Source: Rhizobium sp. NLR16a (lineage in GTDB: Bacteria > Pseudomonadota > Alphaproteobacteria > Rhizobiales > Rhizobiaceae). Taken from it: a DNA stretch of 64,000 nt. A program made the position numbers and the translations under genes. This document shows, piece by piece, positions 356-50,209 of this stretch; the stretch's first letter is position 1; the number at the start of each line of letters is the position of its first letter. The stretch is taken from assembly GCF_017948245.1 (NCBI RefSeq), contig NZ_CP072866.1:1-64000 (forward strand), read 5' to 3'. The notes beneath the pieces are model-generated. The model was not told the DNA's origin. It was given only the letters and a program-made list of their open reading frames with translations, and did not search any database.

Positions 356-369
356 TTGACCTTCATCAA
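356..369. promoter_or_regulatory. FixK/FNR-type box shared by two divergent genes
   Basis: TTGAC-CTTC-ATCAA. Centre 362.5. It predicts transcript starts near 404 (plus) and 321 (minus), leaving leaders of about 18 and 23 nt for the genes at 422 and 298. Confidence 0.8.
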
Positions 370-421
370 AGCGGTTTCGAATTTAGCTTTGTAAAGTGGC
401 TCCGAACCCACAGGAGCAGTG

Positions 422-2035
422 ATGGACACCCCGATCCTAGAGTTTCACGGAGCCGCAGGTTCAGTCACCGGATCCTGTTTTCTTCTCAAGGCCGGCGGTG
501 CCCGTATTCTGATTGATTGCGGAATGTTCCAGGGCTCCAAAACCGAGAAGGAACTTAACTATAGACCGTTCCCATTTGAGCCTGTCGAGATCGGCGCGGT
601 GCTTCTCACGCATGCCCACATCGACCATTCGGGCCTGCTTCCGAAACTAGCCAAGGACGGCTTCAGCGGCCCGATTTACGCGACACCCGCTTCGATAGAT
701 CTTTGCGCCATCATGCTGCAGGATTCCGGGCATATCCAGGAAGCCGAGGTTCGTCAGCTTAATCGCCGGAACCGACGGCGCTCGCGAGAAACGGTGGAGC
801 CGATCTACACCGCAGACGACGCGCGCAGCATCATGCCGCAGTTTATCGCGGTGGAATATGGAGAATGGCGCGAGACGGCAGGCGCCGTGAGATTTCGTTT
901 CTGGGACGCCGGCCACCTTCTCGGATCCGCCTCGATCGAAATAGAGGCGAGCGGCATGGAAGGGCCGGTAAGGCTTTTGTTCTCGGGCGACATTGGACCG
1001 GGTTCCAAGCTTTTCGAGAGCCCGCCGGAAGCGCCGAGCGAGATCGACTATTTGATCTGTGAAACCACCTATGGCAATCGCGAGCGGGAGGAATACGCGC
1101 TGAAGGAAAGACGGATACGCCTTCAGAAGCTGGTCGCACAAGCAAACCAGCCCAATGGCGTGCTTCTCATCCCGTCTTTTGCGGTCGAGCGCACTCAGGA
1201 AGTCCTGACAGATCTTCTCGCGCTCATGGAAGCCGGAACGCTGCAGCGGTGTCCCATTTTTATCGACTCACCGCTTGCCTCGAGAGCGACCGGTGCCTTC
1301 AAGAAACATGTCGTCGAGATGGAGAACGGAGCGAACTTTTTGCGCGCGCTCAATGCGCCAAATGTGAGGTTTACGGAGACCGCCGAACAGTCCAAAGCCC
1401 TGGATCTGGTAACCGGTTTTCACATCATCATCGCGGCAAGTGGCATGTGCGAGGCGGGCAGGATCAGACACCGTCTGAAGAACTGGCTCTGGCGCAACGA
1501 GTGCACCGTGCTCTTCGTGGGGTTTCAGGCAGCCGGCACGCTCGGCAGAATCTTGCAGGACGGCGCCAAAATCGTGCGGATCCAAGGCGAGGAAATCCGG
1601 GTGAGCGCGAGAATGGCAACCCTTGATGCCTATAGTGGCCATGCCGATGCCAGCGAACTGGATGACTGGGTGATGGAGCGTGGTCCGATCCGCAAAGGCC
1701 TGTTTCTTGTCCATGGCGAGGCCGGGGCCCGGGATGCGATGTCGAGCAGACTTTCCGAGAAACTGTCTGTCGCGATAATTTCCCCACACCTCGACGACGT
1801 CTATGAGCTGAGTGGGACATCCGCTCGACTTCTGTCCAGGGTGGCACCGGCTCGTCTGCAGCCCGAGGAGATTGGACATCGGGATTGGCACAACGACTAC
1901 CAGAACTTCGTCCTCAACCTGGCCGACAGGTTGAAGGATGCAGCCGACCACAAGAGCCGCGCCGTCATCCTGCGCCGGCTTGAGCGCGCGCTCGAAGCCG
2001 ACGGGGACGACCCAAAGAAAAATGGGATCCCGTAA
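422..2035 (+). CDS. Beta-CASP metallo-beta-lactamase RNA/DNA hydrolase-like protein
   Basis: About 537 residues, the usual size of the bacterial beta-CASP exonuclease family (Ysh1/CPSF-like). The metal site HxHxDH is seen as THAHIDH near residue 64; later metal ligands are in GHLLGSASIE, FSGDIG and YSGHADA. The beta-CASP insert shows IDSPLA and the GMCEAGR segment. Predicted cytoplasmic, zinc-dependent, acting on RNA; substrate unknown. A GTG at 419 abuts the ATG at 422; I chose ATG because AGGAG (412-416) is then spaced 5 nt away. It is the first gene behind the 356-369 FixK box and is followed without a gap by a small gene and acetate kinase, so probably a three-gene operon. Confidence 0.85.
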   Translation: MDTPILEFHGAAGSVTGSCFLLKAGGARILIDCGMFQGSKTEKELNYRPFPFEPVEIGAVLLTHAHIDHSGLLPKLAKDGFSGPIYATPASIDLCAIMLQDSGHIQEAEVRQLNRRNRRRSRETVEPIYTADDARSIMPQFIAVEYGEWRETAGAVRFRFWDAGHLLGSASIEIEASGMEGPVRLLFSGDIGPGSKLFESPPEAPSEIDYLICETTYGNREREEYALKERRIRLQKLVAQANQPNGVLLIPSFAVERTQEVLTDLLALMEAGTLQRCPIFIDSPLASRATGAFKKHVVEMENGANFLRALNAPNVRFTETAEQSKALDLVTGFHIIIAASGMCEAGRIRHRLKNWLWRNECTVLFVGFQAAGTLGRILQDGAKIVRIQGEEIRVSARMATLDAYSGHADASELDDWVMERGPIRKGLFLVHGEAGARDAMSSRLSEKLSVAIISPHLDDVYELSGTSARLLSRVAPARLQPEEIGHRDWHNDYQNFVLNLADRLKDAADHKSRAVILRRLERALEADGDDPKKNGIP

Positions 2036-2338
2036 ATGTTGTCGACGGAACGAGACTACAAACGAGGCGGCGAGCGCTTTGCTATTCCTTCGCAAGGTGA
2101 AATCGAAGGCAAGCTTCTGATGTTCGAAGTGATTGCCATCACCTGCTTGCAGGAGCTTCTCGCAAAAACGGATTCGCATCAGATCCCCAGGCTTCGCCAC
2201 GGGCTCCTGGAAAATTTGAAAGCGAAGTCCGCCCCGCTGAAGTTGTGCGCGGACGACAAAAGGGCCGCAAAGGAACTCGCGCTTCAACTGCTGACTTTAG
2301 CCTGCGAGGAAACGAAGGACGAGAAGATGGCGCGTTAG
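2036..2338 (+). CDS. Small hypothetical protein between metallohydrolase and acetate kinase
   Basis: Up to 100 residues. The first ATG follows the preceding TAA directly, so translation may be coupled; an alternative start is the Met at 2120, which begins the more conserved-looking helical part (MFEVIAITCLQELL). No signal peptide or membrane segment. Composition is charged and helical, rich in Lys, Leu and Ala. I do not recognise the family. Its place in a tight run with the upstream hydrolase and ackA supports expression from the same FixK-type promoter. Confidence 0.55.
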   Translation: MLSTERDYKRGGERFAIPSQGEIEGKLLMFEVIAITCLQELLAKTDSHQIPRLRHGLLENLKAKSAPLKLCADDKRAAKELALQLLTLACEETKDEKMAR

Positions 2339-2359
2339 CGGAGATCTGCAGGAGGTCCA

Positions 2360-3532
2360 ATGAGCAGCATTGCAGTTACCTTCAACATCGGATCGTCGAG
2401 CTTGAAGATCGGCGCCTTCAACATCGGAGTGGCCGGCGCGCATCCGATGGCAAGGGGCACCGTGACGATTGGCCAGGAAACGCGCTTTAGATGCGAAACA
2501 GGGGAGACCGTTTATGAAGCCGATCTGCCGAACGTCACCGAAGTCGGGCCCGCCTTGATTGCGGAAATTCTATCGCGGCTGCTGCCACCAGGTTCGCAGC
2601 CCGCAGTGATCGGGCATCGCATCGTTCATGGAGGCCCCAAGTTTACCGGCGCTGTCCTGATAGACGCGGACACACAAGCGAGGATCGAAGAGCTCGTACC
2701 ACTGGCGCCTCTGCATTTGCCTCCAGCGCTGAATGTGATCCGCGCTGTGCGCACGGCATGTCCTGACGTGCCGCAGACCGCATCCTTCGATACCGCATTT
2801 CACACGTCTCAATGCAGCATGGCCACACGTCTGGCCATCCCGCGCGCACTGCATGACGCGGGAATCCGCAGATACGGCTTCCACGGGATTTCTTACAAGT
2901 TCGTTTCTTCGAAACTCAAGGAGCTCGCACCGGATCTGGGCAGCGGCAGGGTTGTTTGCGCGCATCTGGGAAGCGGCGCGAGCCTTTGTGGCATGGTGGA
3001 TGGCGTCAGCATCGATACCAGCATGGGGTTTTCCGCGCTCGACGGCATACCCATGGCAACGCGGCCGGGATCGATCGACGCCGGCGCCGTCATCCATCTT
3101 CTCCGAAACAAATTCCACGACCCCGACAAGCTTGAGGATTTTCTCTATCACAAATGTGGGTTGCTCGGCGTTTCCGGCGTGAGCGGAGACGTGCGGGTGC
3201 TTGTAGAGGACTTTCACCCGGCGGCACGGGAAGCGCTTGATCTCTTCTGTTTCAGGATAGCAGGCGAGATAGGCAGGTTGGCTGTGTCGTTGGGCGGTGT
3301 GGACGCCATCGTCTTCACCGCCGGAATCGGAGAAAATCAACCGGAAGTCCGAAAGAGCGTGGCACATTATCTCGCCTGGATGGGGCTCGACCTCAGCGCG
3401 CCTGCGAACAAGGCAAATGCGCTAATCATCAGTGGCCGGGATAGCGCAATAGCCGCATTCGTCATACCAACCGATGAGGAGCAGGTGATAGCCGACGAGG
3501 CGCTCGCTGTCGTAAATCGGCATCGGCACTGA
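2360..3532 (+). CDS. ackA: Acetate kinase
   Basis: 390 residues, normal length. ATP + acetate <-> ADP + acetyl phosphate; here probably makes ATP from acetyl phosphate when respiration is limited. Family signatures: FNIGSSSLKI at the N terminus, DTAFH, GFHGISYKFV, HLGSGASLCG, the GxDTSMGFSALDG loop, ATRPGSID and the nucleotide-binding GIGENQPEVR near the C terminus. A strong AGGAGG stands before the ATG. No phosphotransacetylase or phosphoketolase is visible in the window; the acetyl-phosphate source may lie beyond the left edge. Third gene of the run behind the box at 356. Confidence 0.93.
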   Translation: MSSIAVTFNIGSSSLKIGAFNIGVAGAHPMARGTVTIGQETRFRCETGETVYEADLPNVTEVGPALIAEILSRLLPPGSQPAVIGHRIVHGGPKFTGAVLIDADTQARIEELVPLAPLHLPPALNVIRAVRTACPDVPQTASFDTAFHTSQCSMATRLAIPRALHDAGIRRYGFHGISYKFVSSKLKELAPDLGSGRVVCAHLGSGASLCGMVDGVSIDTSMGFSALDGIPMATRPGSIDAGAVIHLLRNKFHDPDKLEDFLYHKCGLLGVSGVSGDVRVLVEDFHPAAREALDLFCFRIAGEIGRLAVSLGGVDAIVFTAGIGENQPEVRKSVAHYLAWMGLDLSAPANKANALIISGRDSAIAAFVIPTDEEQVIADEALAVVNRHRH

Positions 3533-4240: not shown

Positions 4241-4296
4241 AGCCTTTCCGGGTGATATGCGCCAGGCTGCCGGCACTTTCGTGCAGGAGACATCTC

Positions 4297-6987
4297 ATGA
4301 CCGTTCCCATTCCCCAGCCATTCGCCGCCAGCTTCGGCAGCCGTAGAGGCCTCGTCACTGAAGAGGCCGAGAGCCGGCTCGTGCGCTACGGTCCAAACAT
4401 TCTGCCCGAGCCCGAGGCCCCCTCTTTTGCCATCGTCTTCATGCGGCAGTTCCGCAGCCCGCTGATCTATATCCTGTTTTTGGCTGCCGCGGTCTCCCTG
4501 GTGATCAGTGACACAAAGGATGCGGTCTTTATCGGCGTCGTCTTGCTGTTGAACGGTTTGATCGGCAGCCTGCAGGAATATTCGGCGGGCCGAGCTGCGC
4601 TGGCGCTTCGCAAGCTGGAACAACCGCGTGCCGCCGTCATCCGCGACGGAGAGGTGCGTGACATTGAAGCGCGCCAGTTGGTGCCGGGGGATCTCGTGCT
4701 GCTGGAAGCCGGCGGAAGGGTTCCCGCCGACCTCGCGCTGGTCGAGGCGACCGAGCTTCTGTGCGACGAATCCCTCCTTACCGGAGAATCCATGGCGACG
4801 CGCAAGACGGCACCGTCCCCCGCCGCGCCGGTTGCGGAGGGCAAGACCGCAACCGCATTCGCCGGCACGCTCGTTACTCGTGGCCGCGGCACGGGCATCG
4901 TGACGGGGACAGGACTTGCAACGGAGATTGGCAAGATCGCCGCCGAAATCGGCAAAACTTCCCTCTCGCAACCGCCACTGATGATCCGACTTGCTCGTTT
5001 CTCCAATGCGATCGCCTGGGCGGTGGGATTGACGTCGCTGGTCCTGGTCGGCATCGGCCTCATGCGAGGGCTCGCCTGGAGCGATCTTTTCCTTATGTCG
5101 GTCGGTCTTGCCGTCAGCGCCATCCCCGAAGGCCTGCCGATCGCAATCTCGATTGCGCTCGCGATCAGCATGCGTCGCATGGCGAAACGCAACGTTATCG
5201 TCCGGCGAATGCCGGCGGTCGAAGCGCTCGGCTCCTGCACCATGATCGCAACCGACAAGACCGGGACTCTAACGCTCAATGAGCTCACCGTTACCGATAT
5301 CCGGCTCCCGGATGGCACCGACCTTGCCCTTGATGCGGGGACTGACCCGGACACCTGCGAGATCAAGGCAGCCAATATGGCCGTGGCGGAGGCGCGCGCA
5401 CGGGCCGGCCGACTGCTCAGAGCCGCCTCCCTTCCCAACGAGGGCTCGCTCATGCAGGACGGGAACGGCTGGAAGGGTATCGGCGACACGGTCGACGTCG
5501 CCCTTCTGACCGCCGCGCGCAAGGCGGGCTTGGCGCAAGACAAGGTGGCTGCGGACTATCCCTTGATCGCCCGTATTCCCTATGAGCCCGATCTCAAATA
5601 TGCCGCCTCCTTCCATCGCGGGAGCGAAAACGTGCACATCTTCGCGAAGGGCTCGACCGAAACGCTGCTCAGCATGGCCGACCGGATGGATATCGGCGAC
5701 CGCGTGGTGGAAATCGACCGACACAGGCTTCTTGCCCAGAAAGAGGAGATGGCGGCCCGCGGCCTTCGGGTCCTCGCTTTCGCGGAAGGCGAAATCCGGA
5801 GTGATGCCGACGCCGCCTTCGGCCATCATCACCTGGTCGATCTCATATTCCTCGGCATTACAGGCATGCAGGATCCGATCCGCCGGGAAGTTCCGCAGGC
5901 GATCCGCGAATGCCGCGCCGCCGGCGTCGAGGTGGCGATGGTGACGGGCGACGACCCCAAAACAGCGGCGGCGATTGCCGCTCAGGCGGGTTTGCAGTTC
6001 GGACCGAGCCAAGTGACCACCGGCGATGCGGTGCGCGAGGCCGAGGCCGCAGGCCCGGCGCGGCTGGACGAGCTTACAAACGGCGCCCGCATCTATGCCC
6101 GGGTCGCTCCCAATCAGAAGCTTGCGATTGTGCTCTCCCTGGCGCGCAACGGCCATTTCGTGGCGGTGACGGGCGACGGCGTCAATGATGCTCCGGCTTT
6201 GAAACACGCCCATGTCGGTGTCGCCATGGGCATGAAGGGTACGGAGGTCGCCAAGGAGAGCGCCGACATCGTCGTTGTCGATGACAATTTCGCCTCCATC
6301 GTCGGCGGCATTCGCGAGGGCAGAACCGCCTATTCTAACATTCGCAAAGTCATCCTGATGCTGACGGCGACAGGAGCTGCGGAAATGCTGCTGTTCCTGC
6401 TGGCGATTCCGCTCGGCATTCCAATGCCACTGTTGCCCGTGCAGCTCCTCTGGCTGAATCTCGTGACGAATGGAATTCAGGACGTGACGCTCGCGGGAGA
6501 GCCGCCTGAGGGCGACGAACTGGCCCGGCCACCTCGCCGTCCGAAGGAGCCGATCTTCGACCGGCTGATGGTTCGCCGCATCGTCCAATCCGCGCTCGTC
6601 ATCGGCGGCGGCGGGTTTGCGGTCTTCTACTGGCTGCTGTCACAGGGCTACCCGGTATCCGAGGCGCGCAATCTGTTGCTTCTGCTTTTCGTCATGTTCG
6701 AAAATGTGCAAACCCTCGGCTGCCGTTCCGAACATCACTCGCTCTTCTCGCGGTCCTTCTTCAAAAACCCGCTGCTGCTTGCCAGTATGGTCGTAGCCCA
6801 GGCCATCCATATCGGCGCCATGCATGTCCCGTGGTTCCGTGAGGTGCTTGGCCTGGCGCCGATTTCCCTCGCGGAATGGGCGCTGACGCTTCTGGCCGCC
6901 GGATCACTGCTTCTGGTCATCGAAGTTGACAAGGTGCGGGAACGCACGTCTTCTCGCGCATATCCGAGGAGAATCGAAGCAAAGTAG
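4297..6987 (+). CDS. P2-type cation-transporting ATPase
   Basis: 896 residues, complete. N-terminal cation ATPase domain, actuator loop with TGES (LLTGESMATR), PEGLP in the transport site (AIPEGLPIAISIA), phosphorylation motif DKTGTLT, hinge TGDGVNDAP, and a C-terminal block with NLVTNGIQDV. This is the SERCA/PMA-like P2 layout; the ion (Ca, Na or other) cannot be fixed from the sequence. Start ATG 4297 follows GGAGA; an upstream in-frame ATG at 4252 has no ribosome site. In-membrane exporter. The same type of pump (CtpF) is in the mycobacterial DosR regulon. Followed by a convergent USP gene across a stem-loop. Confidence 0.9.
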   Translation: MTVPIPQPFAASFGSRRGLVTEEAESRLVRYGPNILPEPEAPSFAIVFMRQFRSPLIYILFLAAAVSLVISDTKDAVFIGVVLLLNGLIGSLQEYSAGRAALALRKLEQPRAAVIRDGEVRDIEARQLVPGDLVLLEAGGRVPADLALVEATELLCDESLLTGESMATRKTAPSPAAPVAEGKTATAFAGTLVTRGRGTGIVTGTGLATEIGKIAAEIGKTSLSQPPLMIRLARFSNAIAWAVGLTSLVLVGIGLMRGLAWSDLFLMSVGLAVSAIPEGLPIAISIALAISMRRMAKRNVIVRRMPAVEALGSCTMIATDKTGTLTLNELTVTDIRLPDGTDLALDAGTDPDTCEIKAANMAVAEARARAGRLLRAASLPNEGSLMQDGNGWKGIGDTVDVALLTAARKAGLAQDKVAADYPLIARIPYEPDLKYAASFHRGSENVHIFAKGSTETLLSMADRMDIGDRVVEIDRHRLLAQKEEMAARGLRVLAFAEGEIRSDADAAFGHHHLVDLIFLGITGMQDPIRREVPQAIRECRAAGVEVAMVTGDDPKTAAAIAAQAGLQFGPSQVTTGDAVREAEAAGPARLDELTNGARIYARVAPNQKLAIVLSLARNGHFVAVTGDGVNDAPALKHAHVGVAMGMKGTEVAKESADIVVVDDNFASIVGGIREGRTAYSNIRKVILMLTATGAAEMLLFLLAIPLGIPMPLLPVQLLWLNLVTNGIQDVTLAGEPPEGDELARPPRRPKEPIFDRLMVRRIVQSALVIGGGGFAVFYWLLSQGYPVSEARNLLLLLFVMFENVQTLGCRSEHHSLFSRSFFKNPLLLASMVVAQAIHIGAMHVPWFREVLGLAPISLAEWALTLLAAGSLLLVIEVDKVRERTSSRAYPRRIEAK

Positions 6988-7016: not shown

Positions 7017-7027
7017 CAAGCTCTGGC

Positions 7028-7858
7028 TCATCGGGCCATTAAAACCGGCGTGTTGCAGTCCTCGAGAATCGAGGCCGTCACGCCGCCAAATATTCTTTCG
7101 CGAAGCCGCGAATGACCATAGGCGCCCATAACGATCATGTCACAGCCAAGCTCGCGCGCGCGTCTCAGGAGAACCTCCTCGGTTCTGCGTCCACCGCTTG
7201 CCAACTGCTCGACAACAATCTTTACTCCATGGCGCGCCAGAAATGTTGCAAAATCCGCCCCTGGCTCATCGCCGCTTTTGAAATAGGTGCCATCCGGATC
7301 GACGAGCACAAGATGAACCTCCTCGGCTGCGATCAGCAGCTCTAAAGCTGCCTTGGCGGCATTGGCGGCTTCAGGTCGCGAGTTCCAGGCAACGAGCACG
7401 TTCGTCGGCTTCAGGCTTGCGGTGCCCGCATTCGGAACAAGCAACAGCGGCGTCCTCGAATCGAAGGTTGTTGCCGCCACAACGGTTCTCCTCAGCTCGG
7501 CGTCAGCGCGTAAGCCATGTCCGATCAAGACGATGTCGGCGTACATGCTGCGCATGCCGATACTGCTCTCCAGGATAAAGAGATCTTCATAGAGGCACTC
7601 GACATTGAAGGAGATATCGTTCGTGCGGCACAAGTCTTCGGCCTCCAGCCGGATCTTCTGCAGGGCATCTGTCTCCTTCTGCACTTGGTCAATCCAGGCT
7701 GTGGTCACCGGGTATTCGACGGTGACCGGCTGCAACGCGGCGCCGACTACCAGAATCGACAGATGAGCACTGTTCTCGACCGCCAGTTGAATGGCGCTCT
7801 TGATCTCTGTTTCAGGATCCGTGGCTCCGACGATCGCAAGCAGAGTTTTCAAGGACAT
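7028..7858 (-). CDS. Universal stress protein, two-domain
   Basis: 276 residues. Starts MSLKTLLAIVGATD after AAGGAGATCACC; upstream in-frame Met codons lack a ribosome site. Two UspA-like halves; the C-terminal half has the ATP-binding signature G-2x-G-9x-G-(S/T): GAYGHSRLRERIFGGVT, followed by TPVLMAR. Cytoplasmic stress protein, expected to bind ATP. Its own upstream site (7923-7936, minus orientation) would place the transcript start about 30 nt before the ATG. Divergent from the HlyD/ABC exporter operon. Close relative of the USP at 21349. Confidence 0.92.
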   Translation of the reverse strand: MSLKTLLAIVGATDPETEIKSAIQLAVENSAHLSILVVGAALQPVTVEYPVTTAWIDQVQKETDALQKIRLEAEDLCRTNDISFNVECLYEDLFILESSIGMRSMYADIVLIGHGLRADAELRRTVVAATTFDSRTPLLLVPNAGTASLKPTNVLVAWNSRPEAANAAKAALELLIAAEEVHLVLVDPDGTYFKSGDEPGADFATFLARHGVKIVVEQLASGGRRTEEVLLRRARELGCDMIVMGAYGHSRLRERIFGGVTASILEDCNTPVLMAR

Positions 7859-7922
7859 GGTGATCTCCTTCCGGTTTGGCTGGTTGATCTTAGGGAGGCT
7901 ACAAGGCTGCCCGAAAGCCGCA

Positions 7923-7936
7923 ATGATCTTTGTCAA
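7923..7936 (-). promoter_or_regulatory. FixK/FNR-like box for the USP (one mismatch)
   Basis: Read on the minus strand: TTGAC-AAAG-ATCAT, one mismatch at the last base. Centre 7929.5; predicted start near 7888, 30 nt before the ATG at 7858. Confidence 0.5.
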
Positions 7937-7979
7937 TAGCCACAAGCACGCGTGAGAAGATCAATTGAATCCGTCGCGA

Positions 7980-7993
7980 TTGATCCCCATCAA
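7980..7993 (+). promoter_or_regulatory. FixK/FNR-type box for HlyD/ABC exporter operon
   Basis: TTGAT-CCCC-ATCAA, perfect half sites. Centre 7986.5; predicted start near 8028, which excludes the ATG at 8014 and fits the TTG start at 8056. Confidence 0.8.
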
Positions 7994-8055
7994 GGTAGAT
8001 TCCCGGGAATCGTATGATGAAAGGCTCGTCAGATCTCGCAGGTAAGGAGCCTTCG

Positions 8056-9126: not shown

Positions 9127-9139
9127 CCTGGAGCATCCT

Positions 9140-11890: not shown

Positions 11891-11892
11891 CC

Positions 11893-38033: not shown

Positions 38034-38047
38034 TTGCGATAGCTCAA
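38034..38047 (-). promoter_or_regulatory. FixK-type box, degenerate, for PNPOx-like gene
   Basis: Minus strand: TTGAG-CTAT-CGCAA, fits TTG(A/C)-N6-(T/G)CAA. Centre 38040.5; predicted start near 37999, 21 nt before the ATG. Confidence 0.45.
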
Positions 38048-38207
38048 TTCGCCACAGATTTCAGGAACAACGCACCAGGCGGGTTCCGTTAGAATCTGAT
38101 CTCGTTTGAGAGAGGAGGCGCCGCGACAGTTTGCCAACGCAGGAGTTTTCGAGCGCGCACGAGCAAGTCTTCGACAGTGCAAGGCCAATTCTCACGGGCC
38201 GGAGCGT

Positions 38208-38760: not shown

Positions 38761-39006
38761 CAGCGAAAGGCGCATTATATTTGTGGCCGAGTCTGCTGCG
38801 AATACGCACCTGTTGCCGTAACGGGATGATCTGGAGGCATGGACCTTATTATCCCGCCGTCGAACGGGCCCCGCCGGACCCATCTGCTCGACAAGCCGTT
38901 GCCTGTTACCAACTGTTACAAATTCGCACCATCTTTAACACGCGCGGCATCGGCGTGTCACCGGCGGCTGGTCAATTGTCGTCATCAACAGCACGGAGGG
39001 ATGGAC

Positions 39007-40579: not shown

Positions 40580-40704
40580 GTCGCTTCCTCACATCACGTC
40601 ATCTTAACCTCACAGTCTATCAGCTTTCGGTTTGGCCGCGTTGCGTTGGATCAATTTCAAATTCCGCCGATCGCGACACTTTCCCATGGCGACGCGCCGC
40701 AACT

Positions 40705-40718
40705 TGATCGGCGTCAAT
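40705..40718. promoter_or_regulatory. FixK/FNR-type box upstream of ftsH paralogue
   Basis: TTGAT-CGGC-GTCAA, identical to the site at 17877. Centre 40711.5; plus start near 40753, 22 nt before ATG 40775. Confidence 0.8.
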
Positions 40719-40774: not shown

Positions 40775-42622
40775 ATGGAACGCAAACACGGCTTCAACCT
40801 TGGGTACTTCTTCGTTGCGATGGTCTTGGTCGGAATTTTTCAGCTCTGGCTCGCATCGAGAGATGTCGTCGAGGTTGCCTATAGCGATCTGATGCACATG
40901 GTCAGCGACGGAAAGGTACAGTCGGTAACGCTGACTGAGACGACGATCCAGGGCATGTTCAAGCAACCGCAAAACGGCAAGACATTGTTCGTCAGCAACC
41001 GCGTCGATCCCGCCGCCGCCGAGGCTTTCGAAAGGGCCGGCGTCAAGGTTATGGGAGGCACGGACAGCAATTGGCTGACGACCCTCCTTTCCTGGGTGCT
41101 GCCGACGCTGCTGTTCCTCGGCGTCTGGGTTTTCCTCTTCCGCGGCTTTGCGGAGCGGCAGGGCATGGGGGGGCTGATCAATATCGGCAAATCCCGGGCC
41201 AAGGTCTACCTCGAACGCAAGACCGGTGTCACGTTCGAGGACGTCGCCGGTGCAGACGAGGCCAAGGCCGAATTGCAGGAGATCGTTTCCTTCCTGAAGG
41301 AGAAGGACAAGTACGGTCGGCTTGGCGCCCGTATTCCCAAGGGCATCCTGCTCGTGGGTCCGCCGGGCACCGGCAAGACGCTGCTGGCTCGTGCGGTGGC
41401 TGGCGAGGCGGGTGTGCCCTTCTTCTCGATCTCCGGATCAGAATTCGTCGAGATGTTCGTCGGTGTCGGTGCGGCGCGCGTCCGCGATCTTTTCGAGCAG
41501 GCGCGGGACGCCGCCCCGTGCATCATTTTCATCGACGAGCTCGATGCGCTCGGCCGCGCTCGAAGCCCGCTTGCGGGTTACGGCGGCAGCGACGAGAAGG
41601 AGCAGACGCTCAACCAGCTTCTATCCGAACTCGACGGCTTCGACCCCCGGGTGGGAATCGTGCTCCTGGCCGCCACCAACCGACCTGAGATTCTGGACGC
41701 GGCGCTGCTGCGTGCCGGCCGTTTCGATCGGCAGGTCGTAATCGACCGGCCGGACCGGAAAGGTCGTGCCGCCATTCTTGCCGTCCACGCGAAGAAGGTG
41801 ACGATGGCGCCTGACGTGAAGGTCGACGACATAGCGGGCCTGACGCCGGGGTTCACAGGCGCCGACCTTGCCAATCTCGTCAACGAGGCGGCGATCTTCG
41901 CGACGCGCCGCAGCGGCACCACCGTCAATATGGATGATTTCACTCAGGCGGTGGAGCGCATCGTCGCCGGTTCCGAACGCCGCAGCCGTCTGCTCAATCC
42001 GCAGGAGCGCGAGCGCGTTGCCTATCACGAGATGGGACACGCGCTGGCGGCAGCTGCCCTGACGAGGACCGATCCGGTGCAGAAGGTTTCGATTATTCCG
42101 CGTTCCATCGGGGCCTTGGGCTATACGCTGCAGCGGCCAACGGAGGATCGCTTTCTGATCACCCTCGGCGAGTTGAAGGAGCGGATGATCGCTCTGTTGG
42201 CAGGCCGGGCCGCGGAGGCCGTCGTCTTCGGCGAGGTGTCGACGGGAGCTGCCGACGACCTTGCCAAGGCCACCGATGTGGCGCGGGGATGTGTGACTCG
42301 CTTCGGCATGAGTTCGGTCGGCCAAGCCGTCCTGGAACCGCAGCGTCTTCAGTGGCTGGGCGACGGCCAGCCGGACCTGCGGCAGAAAGACTATTCTGAA
42401 GCTACTGCACGCGAGGTCGACATCGCTATTCGCACCATGCTCGACGAGGCTTATGAACAAGCTAAAGCGCTGCTGAAGACACGCATGGCCGATCTCCACG
42501 CAGGCGCCAAGCTGCTGCTTGAGCGCGAAACGATCACCCCTGCCGATTTCGAGCCGCTGCAGCGTGGCGACAGTGCGAGCGCCCATCAGGTGCAGGAAGA
42601 CCTGCCACTCGCGGCACAATAG
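40775..42622 (+). CDS. ftsH: FtsH-type membrane AAA+ zinc protease (accessory copy)
   Basis: 615 residues. Two N-terminal membrane helices (about 9-27, 100-120) around a small periplasmic domain; AAA module with Walker A GPPGTGKT, Walker [15 protein letters not shown] with [21 protein letters not shown]; zinc site HEMGH ([10 protein letters not shown]) and the distal ligand near [10 protein letters not shown]. Degrades membrane and some cytoplasmic proteins. The C terminus is short and low in charge compared with housekeeping FtsH, so this is probably a stress-specific second copy. Followed by a YbhN-type protein 9 bp later. Confidence 0.92.
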
Positions 42623-42631: not shown

Positions 42632-43678
42632 ATGGTCAATCGCCGACCAGATCTCGTGGCACCGGGGGAGCCATCGCTGGAGTCGGAATTCCCATCGCTT
42701 TCAAGTGAGCCGAGCACCGTCAACCTGCTCGTCGGCTGGGGAATTGGCGTTCTCGTCCTTGCAGGATTGGTCGGCTTCATCCTGCACTTCGGCGATCTCA
42801 GTCTGTTCATCGCCACACTGAAATCAGCGGATCCCAGCTGGCTTGCGGCGGCGCTGATAGTCCAGGCAGCCACCTATGTCTGTGCGGCGGCAATCTGGGC
42901 AATGGTGATGGCCAAGGCCGGCCACCGCAAACGGATCCCCGACCTCCTTTGCCTGGCAGTTGTTGAACTTTTCGCCAATCAGGCGATCCCGACCGGTGGG
43001 CTGAGCGGTAGCCTCATGGTGGTTCGCGGCCTGATCAAGCGGGCTGTTCCCTCGCCGATTGCGATAACCGCGCTGCTGGTGGCGGCAATCTCCTATTACG
43101 CCGCCTATCTGCTGGTCGCCTTCATGGCCTTCGCACTTCTGTGGTACGGAGGCGAACTGACCGACATCTGGTTCTCCCTATCGATCGCCTTCAGTGGCGT
43201 CGTCGTCCTCATCGCGGCTCTTCTGCTCCTTGTCGCCCACTCCCGCGGCCGGTTTATCCCCAGGCGGATGTTGTCCTGGCCGCCTATCGCGAGAACTGCG
43301 GACATGCTAGCCAAAGTCAGGCGCGACTTGCTGAGCGACGGTACCGTTCTGGCTCAGGCAACGGCCTTACAGGCAGCGATCTTTCTTCTCGACGCTGCAA
43401 CGTTATGGCTCGCGCTACGGGCAATTGGCGTGCACATCGAGCTGTCGAACGCCCTGGTCTGTTTCATTCTGGCCTCCGTCGTCGCGACACTTTCGCCGCT
43501 ACCACTTGGTCTCGGTCCCTTCGAAGGAAGCTGCGTCGCTCTCCTTCACCTGCTCGGGGTGCAGGTCGAAATGGGACTCGCGGCGACACTTATGCTGCGA
43601 GGCTTCACGTTCTGGCTGCCGATGCTGCCTGGCCTCTGGCTTATTCGCCGAGAAGCCCGGGAGAAGCAGACATCATAA
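42632..43678 (+). CDS. YbhN/UPF0104-type integral membrane protein (LPG-synthase flippase-like)
   Basis: 348 residues, about eight membrane helices. Signature blocks: AVVELFANQAIPTGGLSGS and ASVVATLSPLPLGLGPFEGS, as in the membrane half of lysyl-phosphatidylglycerol synthase. No catalytic synthase domain, so at most a lipid-moving or lipid-binding part. Starts nine bases after ftsH and must share its transcript; it may be an FtsH partner or help adjust the membrane in hypoxia. Confidence 0.85.
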   Translation: MVNRRPDLVAPGEPSLESEFPSLSSEPSTVNLLVGWGIGVLVLAGLVGFILHFGDLSLFIATLKSADPSWLAAALIVQAATYVCAAAIWAMVMAKAGHRKRIPDLLCLAVVELFANQAIPTGGLSGSLMVVRGLIKRAVPSPIAITALLVAAISYYAAYLLVAFMAFALLWYGGELTDIWFSLSIAFSGVVVLIAALLLLVAHSRGRFIPRRMLSWPPIARTADMLAKVRRDLLSDGTVLAQATALQAAIFLLDAATLWLALRAIGVHIELSNALVCFILASVVATLSPLPLGLGPFEGSCVALLHLLGVQVEMGLAATLMLRGFTFWLPMLPGLWLIRREAREKQTS

Positions 43679-43917: not shown

Positions 43918-44565
43918 TCAGTGCACCGCGATGCGGTTGTCTACCTTGGTCACGCCGGGAACAGACCAGGCAGCGCGTTCAGCGGCGCGACGCTCGTTCA
44001 AGGAATGGACATCGCCATTGAGGACAACGCTGCCGCCGGCCACGTCAGCGCGAATGCCGGACGCCTCGATCTCGGCATTGCGGCGCAATGCACTCTCGAT
44101 ACGCTCCCGAACGTCAGCCGCGCTTGCGGTCGGCCGAATGGTCACACGATTGACGATCGCCAGAACCCCGCCCAGTTTGCGGACGGCATTTTCCGCCGCG
44201 ACGCGCTGGAAGTGCCACGGCACCTCGCCCGTCAGCGTAACGCAGCCGCGCTGGACGGTCACGCCGATAGCGGCATCTGGAAGTGCTGTATCCCAACTGA
44301 TGATCTTCACCGCCCGGGCAGCAATTTCGTCGTCGGCATGCTTCTTCCGCTCCGGATAGCGAATCTCGATTTCCTCGGCAATTGCCCGTACACCTCTCAC
44401 ACGTCGCGCCGCTGCTTCGGCAGCGGCCTTTTCCGCATAACTCTCGACGTGGCCTGACAGGGTGACGATCCCATTTTCGACCGCGACGCCGATATTGGCA
44501 GCATCAATGCTTGGCTCGAACTCAAGTTCGTCCAGAACGTCCTGTTGTATGGTACTGTCGTGCAT
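43918..44565 (-). CDS. Triple BON-domain protein
   Basis: 215 residues, start ATG 44565 after GGAGAG. Three BON repeats (NIGVAVENGIVTLSGHVESY; IGVTVQRGCVTLTGEVPW; GIRADVAGGSVVLNGDVHSL). Same length and order as the protein at 32746, with which it shares DELEFEPSIDAANIG versus DELDFEPSIDAANIG. No signal peptide. Duplicate within the island. A CGCAA-class box at 44641 stands at the right distance. Confidence 0.88.
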   Translation of the reverse strand: MHDSTIQQDVLDELEFEPSIDAANIGVAVENGIVTLSGHVESYAEKAAAEAAARRVRGVRAIAEEIEIRYPERKKHADDEIAARAVKIISWDTALPDAAIGVTVQRGCVTLTGEVPWHFQRVAAENAVRKLGGVLAIVNRVTIRPTASAADVRERIESALRRNAEIEASGIRADVAGGSVVLNGDVHSLNERRAAERAAWSVPGVTKVDNRIAVH

Positions 44566-44640
44566 CTGATCTCTCCACTTTTGAAGATGATAGAGGGGGA
44601 CCCTCGGAGGCAACTCTGTCCCTTTCCCGGCAGGACTGCA

Positions 44641-44654
44641 TTGCGGTCGATCAA
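44641..44654 (-). promoter_or_regulatory. FixK-type box with CGCAA half, for BON gene
   Basis: Minus strand: TTGAT-CGAC-CGCAA. Centre 44647.5; predicted start near 44606, 41 nt before ATG 44565. Confidence 0.5.
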
Positions 44655-44725
44655 AGAAAGCTTGCGACTGCGCGTTTGAGATCCGATTGCAATTTCCCTC
44701 ATGAACTCTTCCGCAGGCGCCTGAT

Positions 44726-44739
44726 TTGACCGATCTCAA
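44726..44739 (+). promoter_or_regulatory. FixK-type box, one mismatch
   Basis: TTGAC-CGAT-CTCAA; fits TTG(A/C)-N6-(T/G)CAA. Centre 44732.5; predicted plus start near 44774. Confidence 0.5.
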
Positions 44740-44860
44740 GGAAAGGCGTCGCCAAAACTCCGATAAACTCAAGAAATCATGCATGTGGATGCTGAGATCG
44801 AGCCCGACCGCTGATGAAGGTTTGCGTCACATAGGGCGCCAAAAAGAGATTGTTCGGCAG

Positions 44861-45500: not shown

Positions 45501-47420
45501 TCAATCGAGGAGCTCACGGAGCCGGAACGCCAACTCACGGGCGGTATAAGGCTTCTTCAGCCAGCTCCCGGAAAGGGCCAGCTCCCGGCCTGCGATTGCC
45601 GGCTCCGCGTACCCAGACGTGAACAGGATCTTGATCCCGGGCTTCCGCGCCCTCACTTCGTTGGCGAGCTCATCGCCGGTCATGCCGCCTGGCATGACGA
45701 TATCGGTGAAGAGCAAGGCGATATCATCATGTTCGTCCAGCCGCTCCAGCGCTTCCCCACCATTCGCGGCCGAGACGACCGTGTAACCTGCGGCTGCCAG
45801 ACGGGAGACAGCGACGCGGCGCACGCGCGGATCGTCCTCGACGACGAGGATTTTTTCGACGCCGCCCGGAATGCTCGGTTGGAGGCGCTCTTTCGCTCCC
45901 TCTTCGCCGGCGCCTTCTGCCGCCGCGCGCGCGGCTGGAAGGAAGACGCGCACACTCGTACCCCGGTCGATCTCGCTGTAAAGCTGGATAAAACCGCCGG
46001 ATTGCTTGGCGAAGCCATAAACCATCGAAAGGCCGAGCCCGGTTCCGGCGCCGACGCCCTTGGTGGTGAAGAAGGGTTCGAAGGCCCGCTGCTTGACCTC
46101 GGCCGTCATGCCGCCGCCGGTGTCGGTGACCGAGATCAGCACGTAATCGCCGGTGCGCACCTCGGGATACATCTTGGCATAGTCGACATCGAGCTTGACA
46201 CGCGAGATCTCGATCGAAACCTGCCCGCCGCGGGGCATCGCGTCCCTGCCATTGAGCACGAGGTTCAAAAGCGCATTTTGGAGTTGCGAGCTGTCGACGA
46301 GCGCCTTGTTGTCTACGCCGGTGACGATGGTACGGAATTCGATCGCCTCGCCCACAGTGCGCCGCAGCAGCTCGGAAAAGCCTGAAACCAATTGCGCGAC
46401 ATCAACGAGCTTCGGGTTCAGCGGCTGCCGGCGGCCAAAGGCGAGCAACTGGCCCGTAAGTTTGGCGCCATCGTCAGCAGCATTCTGCGCCTCACGCAGG
46501 AGCGGCCGCAGCCTTTCGTCGGTCAACTTATCCTCGATCATCTCGAGATTGCCGATGACGACGGTCAGAAGATTGTTGAAGTCGTGCGCCAGTCCTCCGG
46601 TCAACTGACCAATCGCTTCCATCTTCTGCGATTGGCGCAGTTCCTCGTCGATCCTCTGGCGGCTCGTCAGATCACGGATGAAACCGGTGAATATCTGCTT
46701 GCCATTGGCAATGGCCTCGCCGACAGCGAGCTCCATGGGAAAGACGGAGCCGTCCTTGCGCTGCCCGGTCACTACCCGGCCATAGCCGATGATGCGCCGT
46801 TCGCCAGTCGTCATGTAGCGAGAGAGATAGCCATCATGCGCGTCGCGATCAGGCTGCGGCATCAACATCTTGACGTTCCGGCCAAAGACTTCCTCGGAGG
46901 AATAGCCGAAAAGTCGCTCGGCCGCGGCGCTGAAAGAGGAGATGGTGCCGGTACTGTCGATGACGATCATCGCCTCGGGAACGGTATCGAGGATGGAGCG
47001 CAAATGCGCCTCCCGTCCTGCGAGATCATCCTGCACCCTCTTCATACTGGTCACATCATTGTTGGTCTGGACGATCATGCCCTTGGAGGAAGATGGGTCG
47101 ATCCCAATCCAGCGAGTAGCGATGAAGAGGGTGCGCCCGTCCTTGTGGCGATGCAGCACCTCGCCTTCCCAGGCGCCTTCGCTTCGCACCGCTTCGCGGA
47201 TTTCTTCCACCGGCCGGGGGAAATGCGTTGCCAGAAGCTCATGTACGACCTTGCCGAGAGCCTCTTCCCGCGACCAGCCGTAAAGTGCTTCGCAGCCGCC
47301 GGTCCACCGGCTGATGACGCCATCGAAACCATGGATGATGAGATTAGCTCCATCGAGCAGGCGCGCGAGCTCGACGAGCTGGGTTTCGCTGGTGGATCTG
47401 GTCGTCATGTCGCCGTTCAT
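45501..47420 (-). CDS. Hybrid sensor histidine kinase with FixL-like haem-PAS domain
   Basis: 639 residues: PAS 1 (about 15-125), PAS 2 (138-255), HisKA with HDFNNLL (His about 277), HATPase (about 380-495), receiver (about 520-638; Asp in [10 protein letters not shown], Lys in WLKKPYTA). PAS 2 carries the FixL haem pattern: proximal His in [10 protein letters not shown], Arg six residues on, and Arg in [13 protein letters not shown] at His+20, as in FixL His200/Arg206/Arg220; it also keeps [10 protein letters not shown]. Predicted soluble oxygen sensor. No separate response regulator adjacent, so output is unknown. No box directly upstream. Confidence 0.88.
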
Positions 47421-47612: not shown

Positions 47613-48596
47613 TCAAGGCGTCAGAACGGCGGCCCCGTTCACCCGGCCTAGCCGAAGATCCTCAAGCGCTCTGTTGGCATCGACAAGCGCATAGACAGAC
47701 GTATGGGTCCTGACCCTGGCCTTGCGAGCGACCGGAAAGAATTCCTCCGCGTCGGCGCGCGTGAGATTAGCGACCGAGACCACGCTTCGCTCGCCCCAAA
47801 TAAGGGCATAGGGCATCGCCGGGAGATCGGTCATGTGGATACCGCCGCAAACGACCCTGCCCCCCTTCCGCACTGCCTTCAAGGCAGCCGGCACGAGCTC
47901 GCCGACAGGCGCGAAGATGATCGCCGCGTCGAGTGGGACCGGCGGACTTTCGTCCGAACCTCCCGCCCAGACGGAGCCGAGGCCGAGCGCGAAATCTTGC
48001 GCCGCCTCGTCGCCGGGGCGTGAGAAGGCATAGACCTCGCGACCCTGCCAGCGACAGATCTGGGCGATGATATGAGCGGCCGCGCCAAATCCGTAAAGAC
48101 CGATCTTGCCGGCATCGCCGGCCTTCTTCAGCGAACGCCATCCTATAAGGCCGGCGCACAGCAGCGGCGCAAGCGCAACGGGGTCGGCATCGTTCTCCAG
48201 CGCAAAGGCATAATCCGCATCTGCAACGACATGTGTGGCAAAACCGCCATCGCGCGTGTAGCCGGTGAATTCAGGACGGTCGCAAAGGTTCTCCCGTCCG
48301 GCGCGGCAGAAGGAGCAGGACCCGCAAGTGTGTCCCAGCCACGGCACGCCGACCCTTTGCCCGAGCCGCGACGAAGCGACACCCCCGCCGACGGCCTCGA
48401 CGATGCCGACGATCTCATGGCCCGGAACGAGCGGAAGCTTTGGATCGGCCAGATCGCCGTCACAGACGTGAAGATCGGTTCTGCAGATGGCGCACGCCTC
48501 CATCCTCAGCATTAGTTGCCCATATCCCGGCGCGGGATCGGGCCGCTCTTCCGAGCGCAGCGGAGAGCCCACCCTTTCGAGGACCATTGCCTTCAT
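47613..48596 (-). CDS. Zinc-dependent alcohol dehydrogenase
   Basis: 327 residues, start ATG 48596 after GGAGG. Medium-chain dehydrogenase. Catalytic zinc site CAICRTDLHVCDG and GHEIVG; structural zinc Cys in CGSCSFCRAGRENLC; nucleotide-binding region GLYGFGAAAHIIAQ is a slightly altered GxGxxG. Oxidises an alcohol or reduces an aldehyde with NAD(P). Substrate unknown. AdhA-like enzymes of this group are often linked to low-oxygen fermentation. It lies directly after the remains of a CoA-transferase gene whose 3' part is lost. Confidence 0.88.
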   Translation of the reverse strand: MKAMVLERVGSPLRSEERPDPAPGYGQLMLRMEACAICRTDLHVCDGDLADPKLPLVPGHEIVGIVEAVGGGVASSRLGQRVGVPWLGHTCGSCSFCRAGRENLCDRPEFTGYTRDGGFATHVVADADYAFALENDADPVALAPLLCAGLIGWRSLKKAGDAGKIGLYGFGAAAHIIAQICRWQGREVYAFSRPGDEAAQDFALGLGSVWAGGSDESPPVPLDAAIIFAPVGELVPAALKAVRKGGRVVCGGIHMTDLPAMPYALIWGERSVVSVANLTRADAEEFFPVARKARVRTHTSVYALVDANRALEDLRLGRVNGAAVLTP

Positions 48597-48605
48597 CAAC
48601 GCCTC

Positions 48606-48951
48606 CTCACCTCTGTGACGCGACTCTGGTCGACGAACATCACTTAGCCGGCATTGATCGCCCGGAGTAAGACGGGATCGGATTGGACCGGCATGCGGCG
48701 CGCGATGACATGAGCCTCGGTGGCGTGCCGTCGAGATTGTGGCCGAGCGAGGCACCGATCATCAGTGTGATCTTCAGCGGATCGCGTCTTGCCCGTTCCG
48801 CCAGCGCCAGCGGCACGGCCTTGGCCTCGCCGGCTCTGGTGAAGCCGCTCATGCCAGCGGTCATGCCATCGGTGATCAGCTGCGCGGCCTCCGCGGCACC
48901 GACGATACGATCCCACAACCGATCGTTCCGAAGCCGGTCCTTGAACGTCAT
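48606..48951 (-). pseudogene. 5' remnant of acetyl-CoA hydrolase/CoA-transferase gene
   Basis: The first about 75 codons from ATG 48951 (KDRLRNDRLWDRIVGAAEAA, GMSGFTRAGEAKAVP, ITLMIGASLGHNLDG) are typical of the acetyl-CoA hydrolase / succinate CoA-transferase family (about 500 residues). The frame then shifts: EAHVIARRMPVQSDPVL continues in another frame, followed by a stop where the family has Glu, then VMFVDQ. The rest is missing; the adh gene begins there. Non-functional. Confidence 0.7.
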
Positions 48952-48981
48952 GCACAGGCCCCTTTTATTTACCGGTCCTGC

Positions 48982-49347
48982 CTATTGCCGCCAGAACGCC
49001 TGCATCTCCTCGGGCGTGACCTTGCCGTCTTTGTTGGCATCCACGCTGTCGAAAATCCGCTTATGGATGGCCGTGACCTCCTCGAATGACAGCGCACCAT
49101 CCCCGTCCACGTCGGCAATTGCGAACATGATCTTCATCATCTGACCGCGCATGCCCATCTGGGGCATGCCTCCCATCATGCCGGGCTGCATCATCATACC
49201 CTGCCCCATCATTCCGCCGGGCATCATGCCGGAGCCGGGCATGGACTCCTGGCCCTGTCCGTTCGTCTGTGCGACCGCGAATCCCGCAGCGCCGAGGGCG
49301 ATCGTTGCGGCCAAAACGAGAGTGTTTGGAATTCTTGTCTTTCTCAT
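48982..49347 (-). CDS. Secreted EF-hand protein with Met-rich segment
   Basis: 121 residues. Signal peptide (TLVLAATIALGAAGFAVAQ), then a Met/Gly/Pro-rich stretch of about 35 residues with many MMxG repeats, then two EF-hands: DVDGDGALSFEE and DANKDGKVTPEE. Periplasmic calcium binding is expected; the Met-rich part could bind Cu(I) or Ag(I). RBS GGGGAAGGAC precedes the ATG. No box upstream. Confidence 0.85.
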   Translation of the reverse strand: MRKTRIPNTLVLAATIALGAAGFAVAQTNGQGQESMPGSGMMPGGMMGQGMMMQPGMMGGMPQMGMRGQMMKIMFAIADVDGDGALSFEEVTAIHKRIFDSVDANKDGKVTPEEMQAFWRQ

Positions 49348-49644: not shown

Positions 49645-49950
49645 TCAGCCAAAACGTCGGCTGATGAAGTTGAAGATAATAGCGATCAATGCTCCCGCGT
49701 AGCCGCCGAAGATAACGCTTTGAATCGTCCCCAGGGCCAGGCTTCGAAGATCAAAGCCGGTCAGACCCGAAAAGAACTGCAGCCAAGGCCGATGCAGCCC
49801 CCAGTCGGGAGCTACGAAGCCGAGAACCATGCAGAGCAGGAATGAGATGGTTACGAAGGCGGCCAGTGTCGTGCCAAGCACCAGCACGGAGACATGAATC
49901 GGCATTGCAGAGTAGGTTGACGGTTGCGCATGCAAGGTAGTGTTCGCCAT
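49645..49950 (-). CDS. Small two- or three-helix membrane protein (DUF5676-like)
   Basis: 101 residues from ATG 49950. Hydrophobic segments at about 23-46 (VLGTTLAAFVTISFLLCMVL), a middle amphipathic LHRPWLQFFSGLTGFD, and 72-95 (TIQSVIFGGYAGALIAIIFN). The WLQFFSGLTGFD block and size fit DUF5676 small membrane proteins. Function unknown. The box at 50030 is well placed (45-nt leader). Confidence 0.72.
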   Translation of the reverse strand: MANTTLHAQPSTYSAMPIHVSVLVLGTTLAAFVTISFLLCMVLGFVAPDWGLHRPWLQFFSGLTGFDLRSLALGTIQSVIFGGYAGALIAIIFNFISRRFG

Positions 49951-50029
49951 TGAATGATCCTCCGCATATGACCGCGAAGCCGCGGCCATGACGATAGAGC
50001 CATCATCTGTCTATCGGGCGTGAGCCCCA

Positions 50030-50043
50030 TTGATTCAGGTCAA
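50030..50043. promoter_or_regulatory. FixK/FNR-type box upstream of DUF5676-like gene
   Basis: TTGAT-TCAG-GTCAA. Centre 50036.5; minus start near 49995, 45 nt before ATG 49950. Confidence 0.75.
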
Positions 50044-50195
50044 CAATGGCAACGCTTTTGCTTTCAGGGAGCTTAACGTCTCGCCCCTCTTACGAACGGT
50101 TCAGCAGGAAATCTGCGGCATCCGGATGCTTGGTTGAAGCCCCTCAGCAAGACGGTGGCCAGTTTCCAGATTCTCAGCCTGGTTGCGCCGCGGCC

Positions 50196-50209
50196 TTGAC
50201 GAAGCGCAA
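50196..50209 (+). promoter_or_regulatory. FixK-type box with CGCAA half, upstream of USP
   Basis: TTGAC-GAAG-CGCAA. Centre 50202.5; plus start near 50244, 22 nt before ATG 50266. Right-most box of the island. Confidence 0.6.

Follow-up and report, generated by a model that had tools for sequence, protein, structure and literature searches.

An island of FixK-boxed stress and energy genes in Rhizobium sp. NLR16a, probably plasmid-borne and likely serving survival at low oxygen

What is a run of about 35 stress and energy genes, many with predicted FixK boxes in front, doing at the start of a contig of Rhizobium sp. NLR16a, and which regulator controls it? The host is a nitrogen-fixing soil bacterium akin to Rhizobium lentis, with a 6.58-Mb genome in 8 contigs and its nifH on contig C5; the stretch analysed here, hereafter the window, is the initial 64 kb of contig C2 (NZ_CP072866.1; 546,133 bases). 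Based on the boxes, their intergenic placement and conservation, a K-box at fixed spacing, protein families, paralogs and recurrence in relatives, we propose that the locus is very likely a low-oxygen survival island, probably plasmid-borne, that is run by the rhizobial hFixL-FxkR-FixK cascade. We found no published description of this island in Rhizobium in the open-licence literature.

An earlier note on this DNA had counted 22 sites of the loose pattern TTG[AC]-N6-[GT]CAA, all in promoter positions and none after 50.2 kb. The pattern in fact yields 25 sites in the window, where 4.2 are expected (100 shuffles: mean 4.19, largest 10), whereas the count past position 50,209 of the window is indeed zero. 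Fifteen of the sites, all in the island, match the strict box TTGAY-N4-RTCAA, and the remaining ten are loose only. Promoter placement mostly held, since 23/25 loose-pattern sites and 15/15 strict boxes are intergenic in a stretch that is 81.5% coding, a share calculated from a set of 38 genes whose starts were assigned from open reading frames and the R. lentis annotation, and in which small hypothetical frames were not all treated as coding. Measured to the nearest start codon of this gene set, 12 of the 15 strict boxes lie at 40-130 bp and 14 within 141 bp, and several sit between divergent genes. Sites 1340 and 46392 were rejected as real boxes, being coding, not conserved in R. lentis and probably due to chance. 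The listed boxes, which carry no strand, are as follows.

356-369: strict box, between the divergent genes for a universal stress protein (USP) and an MBL/beta-CASP protein
7980-7993: strict box, between USP and HlyD-RbbA-permease genes
13035-13048: strict box, 58 bp upstream of the CBS-BON gene
16539-16552: strict box, 126 bp upstream of Hsp20
18325-18338: strict box, 82 bp upstream of DUF2254
21164-21288: two strict boxes, 21164 and 21275, upstream of a USP gene
25529-25542: strict box, between the divergent phosphoenolpyruvate (PEP) synthase and glucokinase genes
32028-32041: strict box, between CheB-like and BON genes, with no start codon of the gene set within 300 bp
34584-34597: strict box, 42 bp upstream of the triple-domain fusion gene
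40641-40717: a loose box (40641) and a strict box (40704), upstream of FtsH
50030-50043: strict box, with a loose box at 50196, upstream of the USP gene at 50266-51087

A genome-wide comparison of box density, which the earlier note had proposed, confirmed the enrichment but showed that it is not unique to the island. The loose pattern occurs 416 times in the 6.58 Mb, compared with 223 occurrences of a control pattern, so elsewhere the loose form is mostly background; its density is 498 per Mb in the island and 60 outside it. The strict box is found at 52 places (control: 8), of which 15 belong to the island, 13 to another cluster, on contig C6, and 24 to the rest of the genome, giving densities per Mb of approximately 299 in the island, 269 in the C6 cluster and 3.7 outside both. 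The C6 cluster covers about 48 kb around a canonical fixNOQP/fixGHIS region, and its density presumes that C6 closes end to start, following the related plasmid NZ_CP013603.1, where the counterpart region holds fixNOQP, fixGHIS, fixK, a PAS kinase, hemN and nirK.

The boxes are also conserved. The nearest named relative found is plasmid p1 of R. lentis BLR27 (NZ_CP071455.1), which aligns to the window with 91.1% identity across 49,935 bases and is the sole plasmid record of 72,556 to cover at least 80% of either island half by megablast, in a search from which same-genome or very near-genome records may be omitted; because of this relative, we regard C2 as probably a plasmid. All 14 of the 15 strict boxes that can be aligned to p1 are kept, as are 20 of the 23 alignable loose-pattern sites, compared with 143 of 257 other palindromes of the same 4-N6-4 form in the stretch (Fisher, p 0.0004 for strict and 0.003 for loose). 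Loose site 44726 is not kept, and boxes 50030 and 50196 have no possible R. lentis alignment. On the R. lentis side, 14 of 16 strict boxes are intergenic and 2 overlap genes, the coding share there including two genes placed by tblastn matches. Conservation reaches further for one island gene, an enzyme fusion:

34597-37278, plus strand: phosphoribosyltransferase (PRTase) - alpha/beta hydrolase - erythromycin-esterase-like fusion (PF00156, PF12146/PF01738, PF05139); true start probably 34633

Among 17 loci related to this fusion, 10 have a strict box at most 300 bp upstream, where locus density predicts 0.6. The 17 are those that match in full and have sequence upstream, out of 28 from a genome scan; the other 11 were excluded from this count (L029, with its 5' end cut, and the partial matches L034-L043). 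Relatives with the box include Methylocella, Shinella, Ochrobactrum, Devosia and Hoeflea; the seven without it are two Acetobacteraceae metagenome-assembled genomes, Rhodopila, Neoroseomonas, Stappia and two unplaced Proteobacteria, and a loose site occurs in two of the seven. The genome of NLR16a also encodes another erythromycin-esterase-family protein at C7:41674-42996 (open frame 661 aa), 54% identical over the esterase part, in a 4-kb locus with no strict box.

Which regulator, then, would act at these boxes? Three elements in the window bear on this question.

38905-38920, plus strand: K-box (the FxkR site GTTACA-N4-GTTACA) with one mismatch, 86 bp upstream of fixK, which had escaped the earlier note
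39007-39759, plus strand: FixK of the FixK9b type, Crp/Fnr family, without N-terminal cysteines
45501-47420, minus strand: hFixL hybrid kinase, PAS-PAS(haem type)-HisKA-HATPase-receiver by domain matches, a putative haem sensor

These elements bear out the earlier note's picture of a FixK-box island in which stress and energy genes are accompanied by a FixK and a haem-sensor kinase of its own. The island FixK has cysteines at residues 132, 155 and 171 only. Its identity with FixK proteins of R. johnstonii 3841 is 72% (FixK9b) and 51% (FixK9a), and with the C6-encoded FixK it is 48%. Sites matching GTTACA-N4-GTTACA with at most one mismatch occur at three places in the genome, two of which precede the two fixK genes (perfect on C6, one mismatch on the island), the third being C1:195554. 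In R. lentis the K-box before the island fixK is perfect, and from K-box to fixK start codon there are 84-86 bp in four settings, namely the window, R. lentis, C6 and fixK9a of plasmid pRL9. With up to three mismatches the motif occurs 9 times in the window against 9.3 expected, which is chance level. The second PAS domain of hFixL matches the solved FixL haem domain 1d06 (E 6.6e-48), and a paralog with 62% identity is encoded on C6, as is the leading candidate for FxkR (88% to FxkR9; the runner-up reaches 45%). We infer that sensor and activator are encoded on the island itself and that the response regulator would come from another contig. The hFixL-FxkR-FixK cascade has been described experimentally in strain 3841, where FxkR binds GTTACA-N4-GTTACA, in the sections of PMC7888657 and PMC4999443 that deal with it.

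By analogy with that strain, a fall in oxygen would activate the haem-PAS hybrid kinase hFixL, both the island copy and its C6 paralog, and both copies would phosphorylate the C6-encoded FxkR. FxkR would then act at the K-box at 38905 and switch on the island fixK, and FixK would bind the boxes that precede many of the island's operons and induce those operons at low oxygen. Proteins could be protected by Hsp20, GroEL, FtsH and the USPs, carbon and energy metabolism could be shifted by acetate kinase, PEP synthase and glucokinase, and ion balance via three P-type ATPases and an exporter, with the predicted outcome that the cell survives at low oxygen in soil or nodule.

Several observations weigh against this cascade. 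Genome-wide, a reversed control pattern occurs at 13 places compared with the three for near-K-boxes, and the K-box of the window itself carries a mismatch; because near-sites are no commoner than the reversed control, the argument for the K-box is one of position and conservation, not of number. Neither a FixK box nor a K-box precedes hFixL, no box precedes the zinc-dependent alcohol dehydrogenase gene, fixK and hfixL are not in one operon on the island, and the FxkR gene lies outside it. In Bradyrhizobium diazoefficiens, matched to the window by gene kind, bll4644 (USP), bll4645, blr4646 (CBS), blr4655 (PEP synthase) and blr4658 (glucokinase) are microoxia-induced but marked as non-direct FixK2 targets in PMC6515984. 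Finally, the same boxes could be bound by FnrN, a direct oxygen sensor, and the genome has two FnrN genes (C1:1349832 and C5:244386), with N-terminal cysteines at residues 17, 20 and 28 and each preceded by two strict boxes, as described for fnrN autoregulation.

That FnrN chiefly drives the island, leaving the local FixK and hFixL minor or redundant, is therefore a possibility, though a rather doubtful one. FNR, FixK and DNR sites are near-identical according to PMC2908626, and in R. leguminosarum UPM791 an Hsp20 gene is driven by FnrN, as summarised in PMC11784457. Against this, the island carries a FixK with a conserved K-box, the pair of FixK and K-box recurs beside cargo in other Rhizobium genomes, and free-living microaerobic expression in strain 3841 proceeds via hFixL-FxkR-FixK in the experiments outlined in PMC7888657. 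We thus favour the hFixL-FxkR-FixK cascade for the genes listed below.

1-314 (end approximate), minus strand: USP gene truncated at the contig edge, with box 356 in its promoter; intact in R. lentis p1
419-2035, plus strand: MBL-fold beta-CASP nuclease-like protein (PF10996, PF00753, PF07521), with a small gene and acetate kinase after it
2360-3532, plus strand: acetate kinase (PF00871, E 2.1e-91)
4252-6987, plus strand: P2-type cation ATPase, Ca-type, under NCBIfam cut-offs
7028-7945, minus strand: USP (PF00582), with box 7980
8014-13005, plus strand: HlyD adaptor, RbbA-type double ATPase and ABC-2 permease (NF033858 RbbA above cut-off)
13100-13807, plus strand: CBS-pair and BON domain protein (PF00571 twice, PF04972)
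13882-16488, plus strand: magnesium-type P2 ATPase, MgtA (TIGR01524 above cut-off)
16579-17190, plus strand: Hsp20/alpha-crystallin (PF00011)
17379-17921, minus strand: release-factor-like 'host attachment' protein, baeRF family 12 (PF18856, PF10116), with box 17877
18414-19709, plus strand: DUF2254 membrane protein (PF10011)
21322-22185, plus strand: USP (PF00582)
22240-22938, plus strand: PRTase (PF00156), after the USP gene
23063-25465, minus strand: PEP synthase (TIGR01418 above cut-off)
25601-26560, plus strand: glucokinase (PF02685), start taken from the R. lentis annotation
26608-28227, minus strand: GroEL (PF00118), with upstream boxes 28305 (strict) and 28352 (loose)
28637-30964, minus strand: P1B ATPase with a C-terminal hemerythrin domain, behind the CheB-like gene and strict box 31747
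31093-31689, minus strand: CheB-like protein, a lone CheB methylesterase domain, behind strict box 31747
32746-33393, plus strand: triple-BON protein (PF04972 three times)
37520-38188, minus strand: pyridoxamine-phosphate-oxidase-like protein (PF12900), with loose boxes 38034 and 38208 by its start
40775-42622, plus strand: FtsH protease (PF01434)
42632-43678, plus strand: LPG-synthase-TM-like protein (PF03706), after FtsH
43918-44784, minus strand: second triple-BON protein, with loose boxes 44641 and 44726 by its start
47613-48755, minus strand: zinc-dependent alcohol dehydrogenase (PF08240), no box in front
50266-51087, plus strand: USP, the final member (PF00582)

The gene types named by the earlier note are all present, namely USPs (three whole, one edge-cut), Hsp20, the CBS-BON protein, two P2 ATPases, the fusion, the FixL-type kinase, acetate kinase and GroEL. 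To these we add FtsH, PEP synthase, glucokinase, the RbbA-type exporter, BON proteins, the 'host attachment' protein and the P1B-hemerythrin ATPase. The hemerythrin domain of the last (PF01814, E 1.2e-6) is of an oxygen-binding type, fused here to a metal pump. The top NCBIfam match of the protein at 419-2035 is a type VII CRISPR nuclease model, far under its cut-off (337 of 800 bits).

Within the genus Rhizobium, few genomes carry the full island. In a set of 100 genomes, four (NLR16a itself, G000, and G222, G156 and G151) encode the fusion at full length and 31 give at least a partial match to it; six have CBS-BON at 80% identity or more, and 11, counting NLR16a, have hFixL at 77% or more. 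The two genes, full fusion and CBS-BON at that identity, are linked within 30 kb in only 2/100 genomes, the own genome and G222, whose coordinates agree with R. lentis p1. The clustering that the earlier note had suggested seeking in other rhizobia is present in R. lentis p1 and in G209. G209 is another Rhizobium in which a 60-kb region of a chromosome-sized contig of 4.52 Mb holds 28 of the 38 query genes, 17 strict boxes, the K-box, FixK and hFixL; the fusion and PEP synthase were not found in this region.

We compared 11 FixK-hFixL regions that were hand-picked among the genomes with fusion, CBS-BON or hFixL matches (G226, G153, G173 and others being skipped) and are therefore not a random sample. 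FixK and hFixL are adjacent in 9/11, and in G209 and G156 they lie about 4-5 kb apart with island-type genes between, like in the window. A K-box-like site is present in 9/11, always at the front end of fixK; none was seen in the G196 and G184 regions. Besides FixK, hFixL and one GNAT-like gene, the cargo ranges from none (G152, G167) up to 25 island genes (G209). Eight control stretches of 40 kb, placed arbitrarily, held zero island genes and 0-1 boxes each. Smaller sets were found in G218, G182 and G234, where CBS-BON is accompanied by one to five other island genes and by 2, 1 and 4 strict boxes, respectively.

More distant relatives share less. On the Sphingobium conjugative plasmid pTK1, 12 of the 38 query genes are matched (E <=1e-6) in 43 kb, with one strict box only, and these genes may be served by another regulator site. 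At 19947-22623 of this plasmid (L078), erythromycin-esterase, alpha/beta hydrolase and PRTase are adjacent genes, in an order opposite to that of the fusion domains, an adjacency which hints that the three might act together. Xanthobacter and Marinobacter plasmids have the HlyD-RbbA-permease genes in common with the island and otherwise just P-type ATPases (Xanthobacter), matches in Salipiger are limited to the fusion and generic ABC ATPases, and Sinorhizobium meliloti pA offers the esterase part and weak matches.

This distribution bears on whether the gene set is a bacteroid programme of the nodule and not one of free-living survival, which we consider unlikely. The genome does encode nifH on C5, strain 3841 strongly upregulates two of its fixN copies in bacteroids in the data cited from PMC7888657, and the UPM791 Hsp20 matters in pea symbiosis in the summary of PMC11784457. 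The relatives of the module in Sphingobium and the rarity of the full island (2/100 genomes) speak against it. Sphingobium is not known as a legume symbiont. In addition, the comparable lxa locus of Burkholderia serves anoxic persistence in the account given in PMC6127331.

Returning to low-oxygen survival under the cascade, we raise a more tentative idea, which we hold as conceivable and somewhat short of probable: the K-box-fixK-hfixL cassette could be a seed that moves between plasmids and chromosomes and accretes from zero to about 25 FixK-boxed low-oxygen cargo genes, each island being plugged into the host's single FxkR with two kinases on different replicons feeding it, and the fusion being a recurring enzyme. 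Close relatives carry the island whole, in part or not at all, and therefore both the purpose of the gene set and the recruitment of cargo by the cassette are directly testable.

The left edge of the island lies outside the window, since C2 opens within a USP gene that is whole at the matching place in R. lentis p1. C2:1-384 and C6:1-383 are 90% identical, a duplicated USP-promoter stretch that opens both contigs, and the island was therefore cut there by the assembly. At 48598-49268, about 4.6 kb of R. lentis p1 (AdhP, CBS, an ABC protein and part of an acetyl-CoA hydrolase gene) is absent, as is another 3.6 kb of p1. Short pieces within this interval are 94-96% identical to C6:287772-288028, which hints at exchange between the C2 and C6 replicons.

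How does the island relate to known low-oxygen systems? The earlier note had compared it with the DosR regulon of Mycobacterium tuberculosis and suggested a convergent or transferred module. At the level of protein families the likeness is real, extending to USPs, Hsp20, a CBS protein, a P2 ATPase, a PRTase/erythromycin-esterase fusion and haem-sensor kinases, whereas regulator, site and sensor fold differ. DosS and DosT sense through GAF domains, while the island sensor is a FixL-type PAS kinase. Nor is the parallel new: the single paper returned by a full-text search of open-licence papers for FixK, DosR and universal stress protein, PMC6127331, states in its treatment of the lxa locus that the DosR regulon includes genes homologous to lxa genes, with a FixK homolog as possible central regulator.

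The transferred alternative gained no support. Rv2030c combines PRTase and erythromycin-esterase in the description quoted from PMC4410610, and so resembles two of the three domains of the island fusion, but among plasmid sequences the fusion has its best relatives in Proteobacteria (up to 94.7%), and Rhodococcus proteins reach about 46% and apparently lack the middle hydrolase domain. One Rhodococcus region around such a gene, annotated with its own USPs and chaperones, contains no further island-gene match except a generic ABC ATPase. In a protein search with the fusion that filled its candidate limit, 7,998 of 7,999 scored candidates matched, and the organisms named among the best 120 of the 7,998 are Proteobacteria, a result uninformative on mycobacteria. 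CBS-BON matches Rv2626c weakly (E 8.7e-6, 41st of 55), and Rv2623 gave no match to the one USP tried, both among M. tuberculosis proteins of known structure, so neither protein is specially close. The window has no exact DosR-type site and five with one mismatch (2.4 expected; 7/100 shuffles reach five), without clear excess, and DosR-like sites are lacking in 27/28 fusion relatives. The comparisons made gave no sign of transfer from mycobacteria, although the evidence against it is weak because mycobacterial chromosomes were not among the DNA searched. Recent common ancestry of the island and the actinobacterial DosR regulon via cross-phylum gene transfer is thus highly improbable, and we conclude that widespread stress families came under low-oxygen control in both groups.

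Another comparable system is the lxa locus of Burkholderia, BCAM0275-0323, with about 50 contiguous low-oxygen-induced genes that include six USPs, Hsp20/alpha-crystallin and a BON protein in the summaries of PMC6127331, PMC9733578 and PMC9104464. By gene type it has in common with the island a long contiguous run of USPs, Hsp20, BON and metabolic genes, but the FixK/Anr homolog proposed for it (BCAM0049) and FixLJ (BCAL2210/2211) are encoded away from the locus, whereas FixK and hFixL are inside the island. In a Burkholderia stagnalis stretch that is probably not the lxa locus, only HlyD-RbbA-permease, zinc-dependent alcohol dehydrogenase and FtsH match the island. If the cascade reading is true, Rhizobium offers a compact, self-regulated set for low-oxygen persistence of a sort whose other examples come mainly from Burkholderia and mycobacteria. 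Cascade, boxes and types of cargo are already known; what is added here is the rhizobial island as such, the link to a K-box, the varied replicon settings among relatives and the range from bare cassette to large island.

Members of FixK regulons elsewhere overlap in kind with the island. The FixK core regulon of Alphaproteobacteria includes Hsp20, CBS, zinc-dependent alcohol dehydrogenase, HlyD and ABC permeases, and in Bradyrhizobium japonicum blr6070 (zinc-dependent alcohol dehydrogenase), blr6071 (kinase), blr4637 (Hsp20), blr0497 (hypothetical) and blr6074 (CBS) are FixK2-dependent, as listed in PMC2908626. The Bradyrhizobium FixK2/microoxia set of PMC6515984 includes, like the island, USPs, CBS, Hsp20, the 'host attachment' protein, PEP synthase and glucokinase, with bll6069 (USP), blr6074 (CBS), blr7961 (Hsp20) and bll5315 ('host attachment') given as microoxia-induced direct FixK2 targets. 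The regulon sections of these two papers list members and describe no single island with its own regulators, whereas both are combined here. A further counterpart is pRL9 of R. johnstonii/leguminosarum 3841, which like the island has a K-box at equal spacing, the FixK9b ortholog and an hFixL homolog, together with 15 strict boxes in 50 kb and GroEL, BON, HlyD-RbbA-permease, USP and 'host attachment' genes. On pRL9 such genes are intermixed with fixNOQP/fixGHIS and accompanied by fxkR, both of which the island lacks; the island in turn adds, among others, the fusion, PEP synthase, glucokinase and FtsH.

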